Of a DNA stretch of 64,000 bases, positions 13,670-18,802 are shown in pieces. Numbering within the stretch: the first letter of the stretch is position 1; the number at the start of each line of letters is the position of its first letter. Below the pieces are notes generated by a model, which did not search any database, was not told where the DNA came from, and was given only the letters and a program-made list of their open reading frames with translations. The translations under genes and the position numbers were made by a program. Source of the stretch: Haloactinospora alba (GTDB taxonomy: Bacteria; Actinomycetota; Actinomycetes; Streptosporangiales; Streptosporangiaceae); assembly GCF_006717075.1 (NCBI RefSeq), contig NZ_VFQC01000001.1, positions 3,333,501 to 3,397,500 of the forward strand. Reading direction: 5' to 3'.

Positions 13670-13920
13670 TGGGGTGCGCGGGCTTCTCGCCGCGGCGCGT
13701 AAGCAATCCTAGCGGAGATCCGGGCCAGATACGAAATCACTGCCTCACCGCCCGTCGGCGCCCGCGTGGCGGGGACCGGAACGTCGCTGGAACAGCACCG
13801 GGAACACCCGGTTAGGCTCGGGTTCTGCTGCGTCCGGATGGTGCGCGCAGCCACCGGACGCACCGGAAACAAGCCCTCGGGCCGACAGGCCCGGTGACCG
13901 TCGCAGATGTGGGAGCCTAC

Positions 13921-14418
13921 GTGGCCGCTGAATCCAGTTTCGACGTCGTGTCCAAACTTGACCGCCAGGAAGTCGACAATGCGCTGAACCAGGCAGCCAA
14001 GGAGCTCTCCCAGCGCTTCGACTTCCGGGGCACCGGTGCCACCATCGCGTGGTCCGGTGAGCAGGGAGTCGAGATCAAGGCGAACACGGACGAGCGTGTC
14101 AACGCCGCTGTGGAGGTGTTCAAGGAGAAGCTGATCAAGCGCGGCGTGTCGCTGAAAGTCCTCGACCCGGCGGACGAACCGACCACTTCCGGCAAGGAGT
14201 GCCGCCTGCCCATCTCCCTCAAGGAGGGGATCTCCAGCGAGGACGGCAAGAAGATCGCCAAGATCATCCGCGACGAGGGGCCGAAGGGCGTCAAAGCCCA
14301 GGTGCAGGGTGACGAGCTGCGGGTCACCTCCAAGAAGAAGGACGACCTGCAGGCGGTGATGAACCTGCTGCGGGAGAAGGACCTCGACGTCCCGCTCCAG
14401 TTCGTCAACTACCGGTAG
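13921..14418 (+). CDS. yajQ: YajQ family nucleotide-binding protein (DUF520)
   Basis: A 165-residue protein, full length for the family, opening with [20 protein letters not shown], the YajQ signature. It also has [10 protein letters not shown] and the C-terminal YajQ strand [16 protein letters not shown]. YajQ proteins have two RNP-like domains and bind RNA or nucleotides; some bind cyclic-di-GMP as part of transcriptional control in proteobacteria, which is not shown in actinobacteria. The GTG at 13921 follows GGGAG by 5 nt and matches the family N-terminus. It converges with htpX over a palindromic terminator. Confidence 0.93.
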
Positions 14419-14451: not shown

Positions 14452-15315
14452 TCAGTGTGTCCCCCACCGGTCGGCCATCCGCTGTAGGCGGCGGATGCGG
14501 TCGCCCGTGGGGGGATGTGCCGCGAACAGCTTGCTCATGCCGCGCAGCGGAAACGGGTGGGCGATCATCAGGTGTCCGGCCGTGAGCAGGCGCCGTTCGG
14601 TGGGCAGGGGGTGGGTGCGTGTTCCCACCTCGATCCTGCGGAGCGCGTTGGCGAGCCCGAGCGGGTCCCCGGTCAGCTGCGCGGCCGCCCGGTCCGCGCG
14701 GTACTCGCGGTTCCGGCTGACACCGAGCTGGATCACGAGGGCCGCCGCCGGGCCGAGGACGAGGAACAGCAGGCCGCCGAGCAGGCTCGGGACGTCCTCG
14801 TCCTCCGAGTCACCCAGTGGCAGCAGCAGGGCCAGCGCTGTCATGGACGTGATGATCGCCGCCAGCATGGCCGCGACCGAGCACACGAGCGTGTCCCTGC
14901 TGCGGATGTGGGAGAGCTCGTGCGCCAGAACCCCGCGCAGCTCCCGCTGGGACAGGTGGCGCAGCAGACCGGTGGTGCAGCACAGCGCGGAACCACGGGG
15001 GCTGCCGCCGGTGGCGAAGGCGTTGGGGGCGGGAGTGGGTGACAGGTACAGCCTGGGCATCGGCTGGCGGGCCGCGGTGGCGAGTTCCCGCACGATCCGG
15101 TACAGGTCCGGCTGTTCGATCTCGCTGACGGGGCGTGCCCGCATGGCACGCAGCGCCATCGAGTCGCCGAAGAAGTAGACCAGCCCGTTGACGCCGACAG
15201 CGACGACGATGCCGAGCTGCAGCCCCTGGGCCCCGCCGCAGCCCCAGCAGACGAGGGCGACCAGCACCGAGAGGCTGGCGAGAAGGCCGACGGCGCGGAT
15301 CGTGTTGCGCTGCAC
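14452..15315 (-). CDS. htpX: HtpX-like membrane zinc metalloprotease (M48)
   Basis: A 287-residue M48B peptidase. Two N-terminal membrane segments (about residues 8-25 and 33-50) precede the zinc motif HELSH at 132-136, with the third ligand Glu in NREYRADRAA (about 204). Two more hydrophobic segments lie between (around 145-168 and 178-198). The active site faces the cytoplasm in this family, which degrades misfolded membrane proteins. The GTG at 15315 has GGGAG 5 nt upstream and gives the usual HtpX length; frames extending further upstream are non-homologous. Confidence 0.92.
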   Translation of the reverse strand: MQRNTIRAVGLLASLSVLVALVCWGCGGAQGLQLGIVVAVGVNGLVYFFGDSMALRAMRARPVSEIEQPDLYRIVRELATAARQPMPRLYLSPTPAPNAFATGGSPRGSALCCTTGLLRHLSQRELRGVLAHELSHIRSRDTLVCSVAAMLAAIITSMTALALLLPLGDSEDEDVPSLLGGLLFLVLGPAAALVIQLGVSRNREYRADRAAAQLTGDPLGLANALRRIEVGTRTHPLPTERRLLTAGHLMIAHPFPLRGMSKLFAAHPPTGDRIRRLQRMADRWGTH

Positions 15316-15534
15316 GATGTCTCCCAGCCCCCTTCGGTCGTGTTCGTCGCGGCGTACCCGACGGGAAAACGTACGACTTCGGGGCGCGCGTTCCCACCGC
15401 AGGGCGAGGAAGTTCACGTTCGTCAGCCGCGAGGCCGGCGGGGCGCCCGCCCCGGCGCGCCCCGAACATCCCGACCGCGCGCGGCGTGTGAGTTCCACCA
15501 CCCACAGCCCTCTTCGGTGGAGGAACGCCCTACA

Positions 15535-15681
15535 GTGTTGAGCGTGGCTGTCAATACTGCGATCGCGTCGCCGGGAGCTCTGCTCGTGGCCCGGCGGCAT
15601 GTGGACTTGCTGCGGATCGCCAGCGCGTTGTGTCGCCGGCTCCCCGGCGTGCCTGGCGAACGCGGAACGCGACGGTTCTGA
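15535..15681 (+). CDS. Short leader peptide with RRHVDL...SALCRR motif upstream of korA
   Basis: A 48-codon open frame preceded by GGAGGAA 9 nt before a GTG; a second GTG at 15544 is also possible. Its core reads ARRHVDLLRIASALCRR. Actinomycete genomes carry many short 'putative leader peptides' with R-R-H-V/I-D-L then S-A-x-C-R, usually upstream of sulfur or cysteine genes, which are thought to act as attenuators that sense charged tRNA. Here the motif ends in a single Cys codon (TGT) followed by Arg codons and a stop, 213 bp before korA. Its presence suggests that expression of the Fe-S enzyme KorAB responds to cysteine or sulfur supply. Coding is supported by motif and SD only. Confidence 0.6.
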   Translation: MLSVAVNTAIASPGALLVARRHVDLLRIASALCRRLPGVPGERGTRRF

Positions 15682-15845
15682 CGCGTCCGACGACCACGGA
15701 CGCAGTGTTAGGACCACCCGCGACGTTCACCGTCGTCCGCGGGTTCGTAGGCTGGCACATAGGTCCCCGCTCACGTTCACAGATCCCGCCGCGTTTCCAG
15801 CGACCGGCCGGTTCCTAAGCTGGTCGGCGGGATCCGAGGCAAGCC

Positions 15846-15872
15846 AAGCCGCCGTGCTCCCCACGGCGGCTT
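15846..15872 (+). promoter_or_regulatory. Strong stem-loop in the korA leader
   Basis: A perfect 11-bp stem (AAGCCGCCGTG / CACGGCGGCTT) with a 5-nt loop ends 4 nt before the korA SD AGGAGG (15877-15882). With the leader peptide upstream, it is a candidate for the terminator or SD-proximal arm of an attenuator. It could equally be a transcript-stabilising hairpin. Confidence 0.5.
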
Positions 15873-15894
15873 ACCTAGGAGGTCGGCGATCTCA

Positions 15895-17748
15895 GTGACC
15901 AAACAGGTCGAACAGGTCGATCGTGTCATCATCCGGTTCGCGGGAGATTCCGGCGACGGTATGCAGCTGACCGGTGACCGGTTTACTCAGGAAACAGCGT
16001 CGTTCGGCAACGACCTATCGACTCTGCCGAATTTCCCGGCGGAGATCCGCGCCCCCGCGGGGACCCTTCCAGGCGTCTCCAGCTTCCAGTTGCACTTCGC
16101 CGATCACGACATCATGACACCGGGCGATGCCCCCAACGTCCTGGTCGCCATGAACCCGGCGGCGCTGAAAGCCAACCTGGAGGACGTGCCGAAGGGCGCC
16201 ACCATCATCGTCAACACGGACGAGTTCACCAAGCGCAGCCTGGCGAAGGTCCAGTACGAACAGAACCCGTTGGACGACGGGACGCTGGACGAGTTCAAGG
16301 TGAGCCGGGTCCCGTTGACGTCCATGACGGTCAAGGCGGTCGAGGAGTTCGACGTCTCCAAGAAGGAGGCGCAGCGCGCCAAGAACATGTTCGCGCTGGG
16401 GCTGCTCTCCTGGATGTACAACCGGCCGACGGAGGGAACGCGCAGTTTCCTGGAGTCCAAGTTCGCCGGGAAACCCGAGATCCTGAACGCGAACCTGGCC
16501 GCGTTCAACGCCGGGTGGAACTTCGGGGAGACGACCGAGGACTTCGCCGTCTCCTACGAGATCAAACCGGCCCGTCTCCCGTCGGGGACGTACCGCAACA
16601 TCACCGGCAACCTCGCGCTGTCGTACGGGTTGCTCGCCGGAACCCAGCTGTCCGGGCTCCCGCTGTTCCTCGGCTCGTACCCGATCACCCCGGCGTCGGA
16701 CATCCTGCACGAGATGTCCAAGCACAAGCGGTTCGGGGTCCGGACGTTCCAGGCGGAGGACGAGATCGCCGGTGTCGGGGCCGCGCTCGGCGCCTCCTTC
16801 GGCGGCTCGCTGGGGGTGAGCACGACCTCGGGGCCGGGGATGGTCCTGAAGGCGGAGACGCTGGGACTCGCGGTCATGACCGAGCTTCCGCTGCTGGTGA
16901 TCGACGTGCAGCGCGCGGGCCCCAGCACGGGAATGCCCACCAAGACGGAGCAGGCGGACCTGCTGATGTCGATGTTCGGACGCAACGGTGAGTCCCCCAT
17001 GCCGGTACTCGCGCCGCGGTCCCCCTCGGACTGCTTCGACATCGCGATCGAGGCCACCCGGATCGCCACCAAGTACCGGACCCCGGTCATCGTGCTCTCC
17101 GACGGTTACCTGGCCAACGGTTCCGAACCGTGGCGCATCCCGGCCGTGTCCAACCTTCCGGACCTGTCGGTGGACTTCACGACGGAGCCCAACACCGAGG
17201 ACGGAACGTTCCTGCCGTACCGGCGCGACCCCGAGACCATGTCCCGCCCGTGGGCGGTCCCCGGAACCCAGGGGCTGGAGCACCGCATCGGCGGGATCGA
17301 GAAGAGCGACGGGTACGGCAACATCTCCTACAGCCCGGGCAACCACGACCTGATGGTGCGGTCGCGTCAGGGCAAGGTGGACCGGATCGCCAGCGACGTC
17401 ACACCGGTGGAGGTGGACGACCCATCCGGGGAGGCCGACGTTCTCGTCCTCGGCTGGGGAGGGACCTACGGCTCCATCGGTGCCGCGGTGCGGCGCGCGC
17501 GCCGCGCCGGCGAGAAGGTCGCCCAGGCCCACCTGCGCCACCTCAACCCGTTCCCCGAGAACCTCGGCGAGGTGCTGCGCAGCTACGAGCGCGTCATCGT
17601 CCCCGAGATCAACCTCGGCCAGCTCGCGCTGCTGCTGCGCGGGAGGTTCCTGGTCGACGTCATCAGCTACACGAAGGTCAGCGGACTGCCGTTCAAGGCG
17701 GAGGAGCTGGCGAACGTGATTCAGGAGGTCATCGACCGTGGCGAGTGA
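15895..17748 (+). CDS. korA: 2-oxoacid:ferredoxin oxidoreductase, alpha (fused gamma-alpha) subunit KorA
   Basis: A 617-residue fused subunit. Residues 1-190 are the gamma domain (RFAGDSGDGMQLTGDRF, NFPAEIRAPAGTL). The rest is the pyrimidine-binding alpha domain (LGSYPITPASDILHEMSKH, FQAEDEIAGVGAALGASFGG). With KorB it forms the CoA-dependent 2-oxoglutarate:ferredoxin oxidoreductase of actinobacteria, which makes succinyl-CoA and reduced ferredoxin and can replace 2-oxoglutarate dehydrogenase. The GTG start at 15895 is 12 nt from AGGAGG, a slightly long spacing. It overlaps korB by 11 bp. Confidence 0.92.
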   Translation: MTKQVEQVDRVIIRFAGDSGDGMQLTGDRFTQETASFGNDLSTLPNFPAEIRAPAGTLPGVSSFQLHFADHDIMTPGDAPNVLVAMNPAALKANLEDVPKGATIIVNTDEFTKRSLAKVQYEQNPLDDGTLDEFKVSRVPLTSMTVKAVEEFDVSKKEAQRAKNMFALGLLSWMYNRPTEGTRSFLESKFAGKPEILNANLAAFNAGWNFGETTEDFAVSYEIKPARLPSGTYRNITGNLALSYGLLAGTQLSGLPLFLGSYPITPASDILHEMSKHKRFGVRTFQAEDEIAGVGAALGASFGGSLGVSTTSGPGMVLKAETLGLAVMTELPLLVIDVQRAGPSTGMPTKTEQADLLMSMFGRNGESPMPVLAPRSPSDCFDIAIEATRIATKYRTPVIVLSDGYLANGSEPWRIPAVSNLPDLSVDFTTEPNTEDGTFLPYRRDPETMSRPWAVPGTQGLEHRIGGIEKSDGYGNISYSPGNHDLMVRSRQGKVDRIASDVTPVEVDDPSGEADVLVLGWGGTYGSIGAAVRRARRAGEKVAQAHLRHLNPFPENLGEVLRSYERVIVPEINLGQLALLLRGRFLVDVISYTKVSGLPFKAEELANVIQEVIDRGE

Positions 17749-18802
17749 CAACGGCTCCAACGGACAGCTCCCGGGCGGCCTGGACCTGGTACCGCGCAGC
17801 GACGCCCAGTACAAGATGAAGGACTTCAAGTCCGACCAGGAGGTGCGCTGGTGCCCCGGCTGCGGGGACTACGCGATCCTGGCGGCGTTCCAGGGGTTCC
17901 TGCCGGAGCTCGGCGTCCCCAAGGAGAACATCGTCATCATCTCCGGGATCGGGTGCTCCTCGCGGTTCCCCTACTACCTGTCCACCTACGGCATGCACTC
18001 CATCCACGGCAGGGCGCCGGCGATCGCCACCGGTCTGGCGTCCAGCCGGCCGGACCTGTCGGTGTGGGTGATCACGGGTGACGGCGACGGGCTGTCCATC
18101 GGCGGCAACCACCTCATCCACGCGCTGCGGCGCAACGTCAACATCAACGTTCTGCTGTTCAACAACCGCATCTACGGGTTGACGAAGGGCCAGTACTCCC
18201 CGACCTCCGAGTCGGGCATGGTCACCAAGTCCTCCCCGATGGGGTCGGTGGACTCGCCGTTCAACCCGGTGTCGCTGGCGCTGGGCGCCGAGGCGGGGTT
18301 CGTCGCGCGCACGGTCGACTCCGACCGCAAGCACCTCACCAGTGTGCTCCGCTCCGCGGCCGACCACCCGGGGGCCTCGTTCGTGGAGATCTACCAGAAC
18401 TGCCCGATCTTCAACGACGACGCGTTCGGCCCGCTGAAGGACTCCGACGAGCGGGACACGCGCCTGCTGCGGCTGGAGCACGGCCAGCCGCTGCGGATCG
18501 GGGACGACCGCGGGGTCGTGCTCGGCGAGTACGGGGACCTGAACGTGGCGGACGTGGCCGAGGTGGGTGAGGAGCGCGTGCTGCGGCACGACGCGCACCG
18601 GGAGGACAGCGGGTACGCGTTCGCGCTGTCCCGGATGGACTACCCGGAGTTCGCGCACGTTCCCATCGGGGTCTTCCGCGACGTGCAGCGGGACACGTAC
18701 GACGGCATGATGACGGAACAACTGTCCACGGCCCGCTCCTCCCAGGGGGAGGGTGACCTCGCCGCGCTGCTGGCGAGCGGGGACACCTGGACCGTGGACT
18801 GA
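17738..18802 (+). CDS. korB: 2-oxoacid:ferredoxin oxidoreductase, beta subunit KorB
   Basis: A 354-residue thiamine-diphosphate subunit. The WCPGCGDY motif (Cys 39 and 42) contributes to the [4Fe-4S] cluster and further cysteines follow (GIGCSS, QNCPIF). The ThDP/Mg motif is GDGDGLSIGGNHLIHALRRN with NNRIYGLTKGQYSPTS. This is the catalytic partner of KorA: it decarboxylates the 2-oxoacid and passes electrons through the cluster to ferredoxin. The gene starts inside the end of korA, so the two are translationally coupled, and it is followed by a strong hairpin. Confidence 0.93.
   Translation: MASDNGSNGQLPGGLDLVPRSDAQYKMKDFKSDQEVRWCPGCGDYAILAAFQGFLPELGVPKENIVIISGIGCSSRFPYYLSTYGMHSIHGRAPAIATGLASSRPDLSVWVITGDGDGLSIGGNHLIHALRRNVNINVLLFNNRIYGLTKGQYSPTSESGMVTKSSPMGSVDSPFNPVSLALGAEAGFVARTVDSDRKHLTSVLRSAADHPGASFVEIYQNCPIFNDDAFGPLKDSDERDTRLLRLEHGQPLRIGDDRGVVLGEYGDLNVADVAEVGEERVLRHDAHREDSGYAFALSRMDYPEFAHVPIGVFRDVQRDTYDGMMTEQLSTARSSQGEGDLAALLASGDTWTVD

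Follow-up and report, generated by a model that had tools for sequence, protein, structure and literature searches.

A leader peptide with a conserved UGU codon upstream of korAB in Streptosporangiales as a candidate cysteine-responsive attenuator

Background

In the tna operon of Escherichia coli, the ribosome stalls on the TnaC leader ahead of a Rho-sensitive spacer. This TnaC/Rho attenuation is named as a parallel in a study of the Cys-codon leaders of cys and cbs operons (Seliverstov 2005, PMC1262725), which suggested Rho-dependent control for the cys leaders of Actinobacteria, with runs of Cys codons and no terminator. In Mycobacterium smegmatis, cysteine-dependent attenuation by leaderless ORFs with Cys codons has been described (Canestrari 2020, via PMC9031893 and PMC13091356), and the mycobacterial polycysteine sORFs (Canestrari 2020, via PMC9094748, PMC9031893, PMC13236596, and PMC13091356) combine a leaderless start with sensing Cys codons before the regulated gene. 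Ribosome-mediated attenuation was also proposed for uORFC-8-2, a Cys-codon uORF upstream of cysS in Rhodobacterales (PMC8632094), where UGC dominates and an intrinsic terminator is present. Finally, the NCBIfam model NF042934 (cis_reg_atten, 'putative leader peptide') covers short ORFs with an R-x-[HA]-V-D-L...C core located before a gene.

Here we analyzed a leader upstream of korAB in a stretch of 64,000 nucleotides from Haloactinospora alba, hereafter the window. Its core and its position before a gene are those of NF042934, while its target, korAB, is different. With the mycobacterial sORFs it shares a short ORF, predicted to be leaderless, and a Cys proposed to sense, but it has a single Cys instead of a Cys tract, and korA is not a cysteine-synthesis gene. 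The leaders of Seliverstov 2005 are alike in lacking a terminator, in the suggested Rho-dependent control and in their actinobacterial origin, but have runs of Cys codons; a korA case, a UGU rule, and a C>G skew are not among the points available from that study. In comparison with uORFC-8-2, the codon, the terminator, the phylum, and the target differ, and in comparison with TnaC/Rho the proposed logic is alike while signal, peptide, and codon are not, the stall on the korA leader being a prediction. A literature search returned no account of a korA leader or of the UGU rule, Canestrari 2020 having been judged via citing papers and mentions by RRHVDL alone being liable to escape such a search.

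Methods

KorA was found in 60 of 61 genomes of the family and in 98 of 118 genomes of the class; three places at contig ends (G110, G134, G167) were left out of the locus set. The 156 KorA loci were scanned with a profile of the first 20 korA leaders, a score of at least 27 being counted as a leader. There was too little upstream DNA to judge L136 (among the 92 loci of other families) and L029 (in the family). The 42 korA leaders compared below are the 39 loci scoring at least 27 together with L012, L015, and L027. A class-wide set of 114 leaders (63 genomes, 26 families) consisted of 30 and 80 loci from the ranked NF042934 matches listed, plus 4 from the window's genome; a ranked source of limited length under-samples weak members, and a few places were skipped (contig end, second match at the same place). 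The selection pattern demanded Cys at the ninth codon after the motif Asp (D+9) for the first 34 loci and not for the other 80, and never specified its codon.

Results

The following features of the window, all on the forward strand, are referred to below.

15531 to 15536, forward: predicted -10 box TACAGT of the leader promoter (TA[TC]AGT conserved in 41 of 42 korA leaders)
15544 to 15681, forward: predicted leaderless leader-peptide ORF of 45 codons, VAVNTAIASPGALLVARRHVDLLRIASALCRRLPGVPGERGTRRF (33.2 bits to NF042934; start placed by comparison)
15592 to 15609, forward: RRHVDL motif of the leader (peptide-level constraint across the 114 class-wide leaders)
15631 to 15633, forward: UGU Cys codon, nine codons past the motif Asp, proposed sensing codon (UGU in 114/114 class-wide)
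15682 to 15845, forward: untranslated C-over-G spacer, proposed Rho-loading region (C>G in 40 of 42 korA-leader spacers)
15846 to 15872, forward: 11-bp hairpin upstream of the korA Shine-Dalgarno, clade-specific (window sequence, folding, and comparison)
15877 to 15882, forward: korA Shine-Dalgarno (SD) AGGAGG (GGAGG kept in aligned relatives)
15895 to 17748, forward: korA, 2-oxoacid:ferredoxin oxidoreductase alpha subunit, fused gamma-alpha (TIGR03710 660.6 bits, cut-off 482.75; PF01558, PF01855)
17738 to 18802, forward: korB, beta subunit, TPP and Fe-S (PF02775; TIGR02177 249.6 bits, just under the cut-off of 261.9)

The first-pass annotation had read a frame with an RRHVDL core and a single Cys codon ahead of genes for a 2-oxoacid:ferredoxin oxidoreductase, and this reading was confirmed: the frame 15535-15681 has 48 codons and a stop (VLSVAVNTAIASPGALLVARRHVDLLRIASALCRRLPGVPGERGTRRF), its core is ARRHVDLLRIASALCRR, its only Cys codon is the TGT at 15631-15633, and the alpha subunit lies above the TIGR03710 cut-off, the beta subunit just under that of TIGR02177. 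The peptide had also been assigned to the actinobacterial leader peptides of sulfur genes, and it indeed passes the NF042934 cut-off of 27 (E 2.8e-8), staying below the cut-off of 45 of both mycobacterial Cys-rich models (NF042936 Ms4527A, 23.7; NF042933 Ms5788A, 16.6). The 'good SD' attributed to the frame did not hold up, as GGAGG (15519-15523) lies upstream of the TACAGT box and the leader is predicted to be leaderless.

This prediction comes from the comparison of the 42 korA leaders, 41 of which have a TA[TC]AGT box (39 TATAGT, 2 TACAGT) and an in-frame GTG 6, 7, or 8 nt further on (12, 8, and 21 leaders, respectively), an arrangement with no occurrence on the antisense of the same stretches; L074 is the sole korA leader without the box. 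Class-wide, TAnnnT stands 4-9 nt before an in-frame ATG or GTG in 60 of 114 leaders vs. 43 of 2280 shuffles. Leaderless transcripts of Streptomyces lividans have a -10 TAnnnT at 4-9 nt from the start site (PMC8079986), and since the conserved box and GTG have the same geometry, we predict GTG 15544 as the start of the window leader and its mRNA as leaderless. The window frame extends 15 codons beyond its Cys, the stop following 1-8 codons after the Cys in 40 of the 42 korA leaders; in L021 no stop occurs within the 150 nt read. Several korA leaders of the Actinomadura type have TACACT in place of TATAGT, and RQxSSLC or RQASSLC cores were seen in L074, L230, L231, L246, and other leaders of this type.

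The absence of the peptide upstream of korA in relatives had been named beforehand as grounds for abandoning the proposal; the peptide was found at 37 of the 60 loci of the family sample, and at 39 of 64 same-family (Streptosporangiales) loci of the whole scan. Another 20 of the 60 have no leader and three further ones only a degenerate form. Within the family, L012 and L015 score 10-14, and L027 scores below zero yet retains the GTG start and the terminal TGT. None of the 92 loci of other families in the scan carries the leader (best score 5.6; best on antisense strands 2.8). Among 80 named loci it occurs in 31, including Nocardiopsaceae, Actinomadura, Thermomonospora, Nonomuraea, Microbispora, Sphaerisporangium, Thermoactinospora, and Rhizohabitans, and in none of the 25 Streptomyces loci. 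The leader is thereby ruled out as a trait that korA has throughout the class. In many genera, the conserved -10 box, GTG, and UGU lie 145-405 nt from korA.

At nine Nocardiopsis-type loci (L205, L206, L207, L209, L211, L212, L215, L217, L222), RRHVDL is lost but the TATAGT box, the GTG, and a terminal UGU followed by one codon and the stop are kept in 9/9, which, going by their sequences, is a natural separation of codon and peptide motif. No such GTG...UGU frame was found at eight other Nocardiopsis korA loci. The records of L212 and L227 are titled Glycomyces fuscus and Mycobacterium sp. (MAG), respectively; their KorA loci are Nocardiopsis-/Streptosporangiales-like, and the titles may be misassigned.

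The most regular property of the leaders is the codon of the Cys at D+9, which is TGT in all 114 class-wide leaders, whereas the remaining Cys codons of the same leaders are TGC in 116 and TGT in 24 cases, and the Cys at D+2, where present, is TGC in 46 and TGT in 4. The difference between D+9 and the other Cys codons has a Fisher p of 1.7e-48, which ignores relatedness and is not to be taken at face value; because some of the sampled genomes are low-GC, where TGT is unsurprising, and the sequences share ancestry, what carries the argument is the contrast within the same leaders. The korA leaders have TGT at this position in 41 of 42 cases (one TAT) and TGC or TGT at D+2 in 20 and 2 cases, the sulfite-reductase leaders have TGT in 30/30, and the genes of the window use 102 TGC and 11 TGT. 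The next base is also biased (C 88, T 21, A 4, G 1 in the class set): G never follows the D+9 codon in the korA leaders (0/42) or the sulfite-reductase leaders (0/30), in comparison with 49 of the 113 Cys codons of window genes, and the 88 following codons that begin with C encode five residues. Purines 3' of a codon are known from suppression studies to help its decoding. We read UGU, decoded by wobble and without a following G, as the form in which a Cys codon is decoded least efficiently; being wobble-paired and followed by a non-G base, it would be the Cys codon that reacts most strongly when charged tRNA-Cys runs short.

The residues of the motif are conserved independently of their codons, as the position four before the Asp is Arg in 114/114 class-wide leaders with five codons in use, and the Asp is written GAC in 85 and GAT in 29. 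Retention of both residues despite synonymous change indicates that the constraint acts at the peptide level.

NF042934 matches at E ≤ 0.001 were present in 76 of the 98 genomes of the class sample and in 0 of 14 control genomes. The genes after the 114 leaders belong mostly to sulfur metabolism (Pfam DUF4395 24, rhodanese 21, nitrite/sulfite reductase 21, luciferase-like monooxygenase 6, PAPS reductase 5, ThiS 5, cysteine dioxygenase 4, and others), and no POR/KOR family was among the 25 of 30 Pfam families listed. In 4 of the 114 cases the following gene is a cysteine-degrading cysteine dioxygenase (CDO_I), where the regulatory sign is puzzling. A sulfur gene as target is a usual trait of NF042934 leaders and not a criterion of the model; at the window korAB follows instead, and the sulfur link of the korA leader is one that we infer. 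In the window's genome, three NF042934 matches exceed the cut-off, and two more fall short of it but have leader-like frames; downstream of the four leaders other than that of korA lie a symporter of the sodium:dicarboxylate family, a NirA-type sulfite reductase, an FMN reductase of the SsuE/MsuE kind, and a sulfurtransferase.

Each of the 30 korA-leader genomes tested has exactly one NirA-type sulfite reductase, and each copy is preceded by a leader; these genomes were picked for carrying a korA leader, and the comparison holds no leaderless ones. The copy of the window's genome matches the solved NirA 1zj8 of Mycobacterium tuberculosis (E 1.3e-90); although labeled as a ferredoxin-dependent nitrite reductase, this NirA is known to be a sulfite reductase. 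The window's genome has a full NirB nitrite reductase at another place. The KOR of M. tuberculosis gave no measurable reduction of NAD+ or NADP+ (PMC2773412). A single signal for the sulfite reductase and for the enzyme that makes reduced ferredoxin is the simplest reason for a leader before korAB, and it would mean more KorAB when cysteine is short.

An excess of C over G is a signature of Rho-loading RNA. In the 70 nt after the stop codon of the 114 class-wide leaders, C and G amount to 0.44 and 0.28, with C>G in 108/114 (at short spacers this stretch can run into the next gene), while upstream of the same leaders the values are 0.35 and 0.35, with C>G in 55/114; the shift sets in at the leader stop codon. 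The spacers of the korA leaders behave alike (0.41/0.30; C>G in 40/42), in contrast to the comparison sets, where C>G was counted in 10 of 22 leaderless family korA loci, in 46.7% of 107 leaderless loci, and in 9 of 24 5' regions and 14 of 28 3' regions of window genes. In the window itself the excess is modest (C 0.371, G 0.294 in 15682-15824), and the RNA from the leader to korA folds more stably than shuffled sequence (z -3.1), in contrast to a textbook rut site. No terminator-like site was found in 15300-15950, which speaks against an attenuator of the trp type with a GC-rich hairpin and a U-run. No Rfam riboswitch or leader reached its gathering score in the window, and the three matches in 15500-15920 (E up to 5, minus strand) were far below it.

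The 11-bp hairpin reported before the korA SD is present at 15846-15872, starting 164 nt past the leader stop and ending 4 nt before the SD, but the attenuator role given to it is not supported. Across 14 Nocardiopsaceae-type rows (the window and 13 of its 29 distinct relatives; L013, L017, L027, L046, L047, and the Nocardiopsis set except L203, in which the arms line up in another way, were excluded), 93.7% of cells pair vs. 34-52% when slid. Covariation is moderate: both partners vary in 3 of the 9 pairs, a number that 46 of 500 shuffles attain, and 3 of 500 attain the covariation score. Beyond this type the hairpin is weak or lacking, the mean z being -2.2 in 16 Nocardiopsaceae-type loci and -1.0 in 26 other leader-bearing loci, a few stretches outside the Nocardiopsaceae type (e.g., L049, L066, L073) including the SD itself. 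The hairpin persists in core Nocardiopsis loci that have lost the leader motif. Being restricted to the Nocardiopsaceae type, outliving the loss of the motif and lacking a U-run, it was rejected as a shared attenuator, and we regard it as a feature of its own, local to the korA 5' end.

A sequestration of the SD switched by the ribosome was computed over 41 of the 42 loci (one has no GGAGG) and no effect was obtained, the mean accessibility being 0.25, 0.23, and 0.24 with the ribosome free, at the UGU, and at the stop; in the window alone it fell from 0.49 to 0.16 on stalling. A strongly conserved element, GGATCTAGCAT, lies some 64-68 nt before korA in 19 of the 42 leader loci (e.g., L028, L033, L066). 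It is promoter-like without a conserved -35 and is possibly a second, nearer korA promoter or a binding site; as a promoter, it may keep a basal korA expression independent of the leader.

Discussion

With moderate confidence, we favor a cysteine-responsive attenuator in which low cysteine stalls the ribosome at the UGU, the spacer is sensitive to Rho, korAB is raised, and the resulting ferredoxin serves sulfite reductase. RNA polymerase would start at or beside GTG 15544, and ribosomes would begin on this 5'-terminal codon and translate a peptide in which RRHVDL precedes the single UGU Cys codon by about ten residues, UGU being proposed as the Cys codon most exposed to a lack of charged tRNA-Cys. 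With ample cysteine, the ribosome would finish and depart, the C-rich, G-poor spacer would be exposed to Rho, and most transcripts from the leader promoter would end ahead of korA. With low cysteine, the ribosome would be held at the UGU, mask the beginning of the spacer, and allow transcription into korAB. Reduced ferredoxin made by KorAB would then feed the ferredoxin-dependent sulfite reductase, which in these genomes has a leader of this kind too, and so provide sulfide for cysteine. This suggests that some Streptosporangiales may raise the electron supply for cysteine synthesis when cysteine is scarce. The conservation, the -10 box with its GTG, the UGU rule, the C>G skew, and the co-occurrence of sulfite-reductase leaders form the comparative basis, while the charging of tRNA-Cys as signal, the direction of the response, Rho, and the electron-supply logic are what we infer from it; cysteine as the signal, already proposed in the first-pass annotation, is supported as likely.

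Several points speak against this mechanism. A nearer promoter at GGATCTAGCAT would bypass the leader, a third of the family sample (20/60) is leaderless and three loci are degenerate, and RRHVDL is gone in the nine Nocardiopsis-type loci. In the window, 15 codons separate the Cys from the stop, which would leave the spacer beyond the reach of a ribosome stalled at the Cys, and the masking would be weaker at this locus. The Rho step is at odds with the structured RNA and the modest C>G excess of the window, and the M. smegmatis leaders are described as translation control by alternative RNA structures and not by Rho (PMC13236596, PMC13091356). Induction by shortage fits badly with the cysteine dioxygenase genes behind 4/114 leaders.

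A wider form of the proposal is tentative and, in our judgment, possible without being probable: one universal sensor of the actinobacterial cysteine leaders (UGU and never UGC, at D+9, hardly ever with a G behind it and hence decoded least efficiently, with a tunnel-resident RxHVDL that can aid the stall and a Rho-prone C-rich spacer right after it). Streptosporangiales would have extended its regulon beyond sulfur enzymes to the supply of electrons, with KorAB reducing ferredoxin for the NirA-type sulfite reductase. A single cysteine signal would then set the reductase together with its electron donor, and the price would be 2-oxoglutarate withdrawn from the TCA cycle.

Translational attenuation, in which the RNA would fold so as to cover or expose the korA SD according to where the ribosome stands in the leader, is unlikely, though it is the model reported for M. 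smegmatis (PMC13236596, PMC13091356) and the conserved hairpin 4 nt before the SD would suit it in Nocardiopsaceae-type loci. Against it, the computed mean SD accessibility was unchanged by ribosome position at the 41 loci (computed structures of GC-rich RNA this long are not reliable), and the hairpin is not common to the other leader-bearing clades.

We give a rather low probability to an arrest by the nascent chain, by which RRHVDLxR in the exit tunnel would stall the ribosome at the Cys and cysteine or Cys-tRNA would relieve or trigger the stall in a TnaC-like manner. The fixed distance between motif and Cys (114/114) and the residues kept under synonymous change (five codons for R, two for D) agree with it, but the motif is dispensable at least in the nine Nocardiopsis-type leaders, which keep GTG, terminal UGU, and stop without it. 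A model of the peptide only leaves the preference for UGU over UGC unexplained, and what is set after the Cys is the first base (C in 88/114 codons, for five residues) rather than the residue.

It is doubtful, and we rate it lower again, that the leader is a relic or acts for itself, with korAB transcribed from a nearer promoter and hardly dependent on it. The promoter-like GGATCTAGCAT near korA in 19/42 leader loci is in line with this, as is the fact that some members of the family have lost the leader or show it in decayed form, but the -10 box, GTG, and UGU are conserved at 145-405 nt before korA in many genera, and no such frame precedes korA outside the family.

Far less likely is the sign assumed in the first-pass annotation, namely that synthesis of an Fe-S enzyme is coupled to cysteine supply, so that less cysteine gives less korAB. 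KorB does bear an Fe-S cluster (PMC2773412; also known for the family), and the sign would fit if stalling exposed the RNA to Rho. The same leader type, however, precedes sulfite and PAPS reductase genes, which must rise as cysteine falls, and attenuation by cysteine is the direction reported for M. smegmatis (PMC9031893, PMC13091356). This rationale thus predicts the wrong sign: with the same sensor on shortage-induced sulfur genes, korAB, an Fe-S enzyme, would be expected to rise during shortage. A chance ORF without function is refuted by the conservation and the codon constraint (33.2 bits to NF042934; 39/64 family vs. 0/92 other loci) and has next to no probability.

If the favored mechanism is true, the regulation assigns the aerotolerant KorAB of actinobacteria a physiological role, that of donating electrons for sulfite reduction. 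The UGU rule would give the 'putative leader peptide' family, which is loosely defined, a mechanistic prediction, by which one synonymous change from UGU to UGC should blunt the cysteine response, and it offers a codon-level filter for finding such leaders. The C>G skew would make Rho-dependent attenuation in this leader family testable with a drug.

Two observations concern the surroundings of the leaders in the window's genome. The leader L002 (minus strand), located before the sodium:dicarboxylate-family symporter, has an inner UGC in addition to a UGU, and the symporter is perhaps a cystine importer. Upstream of the korA leader, the window carries a frame of 174 codons (13894-14418), followed by a divergent gene for an HtpX-like M48 protease (14452 to about 15319, minus strand).
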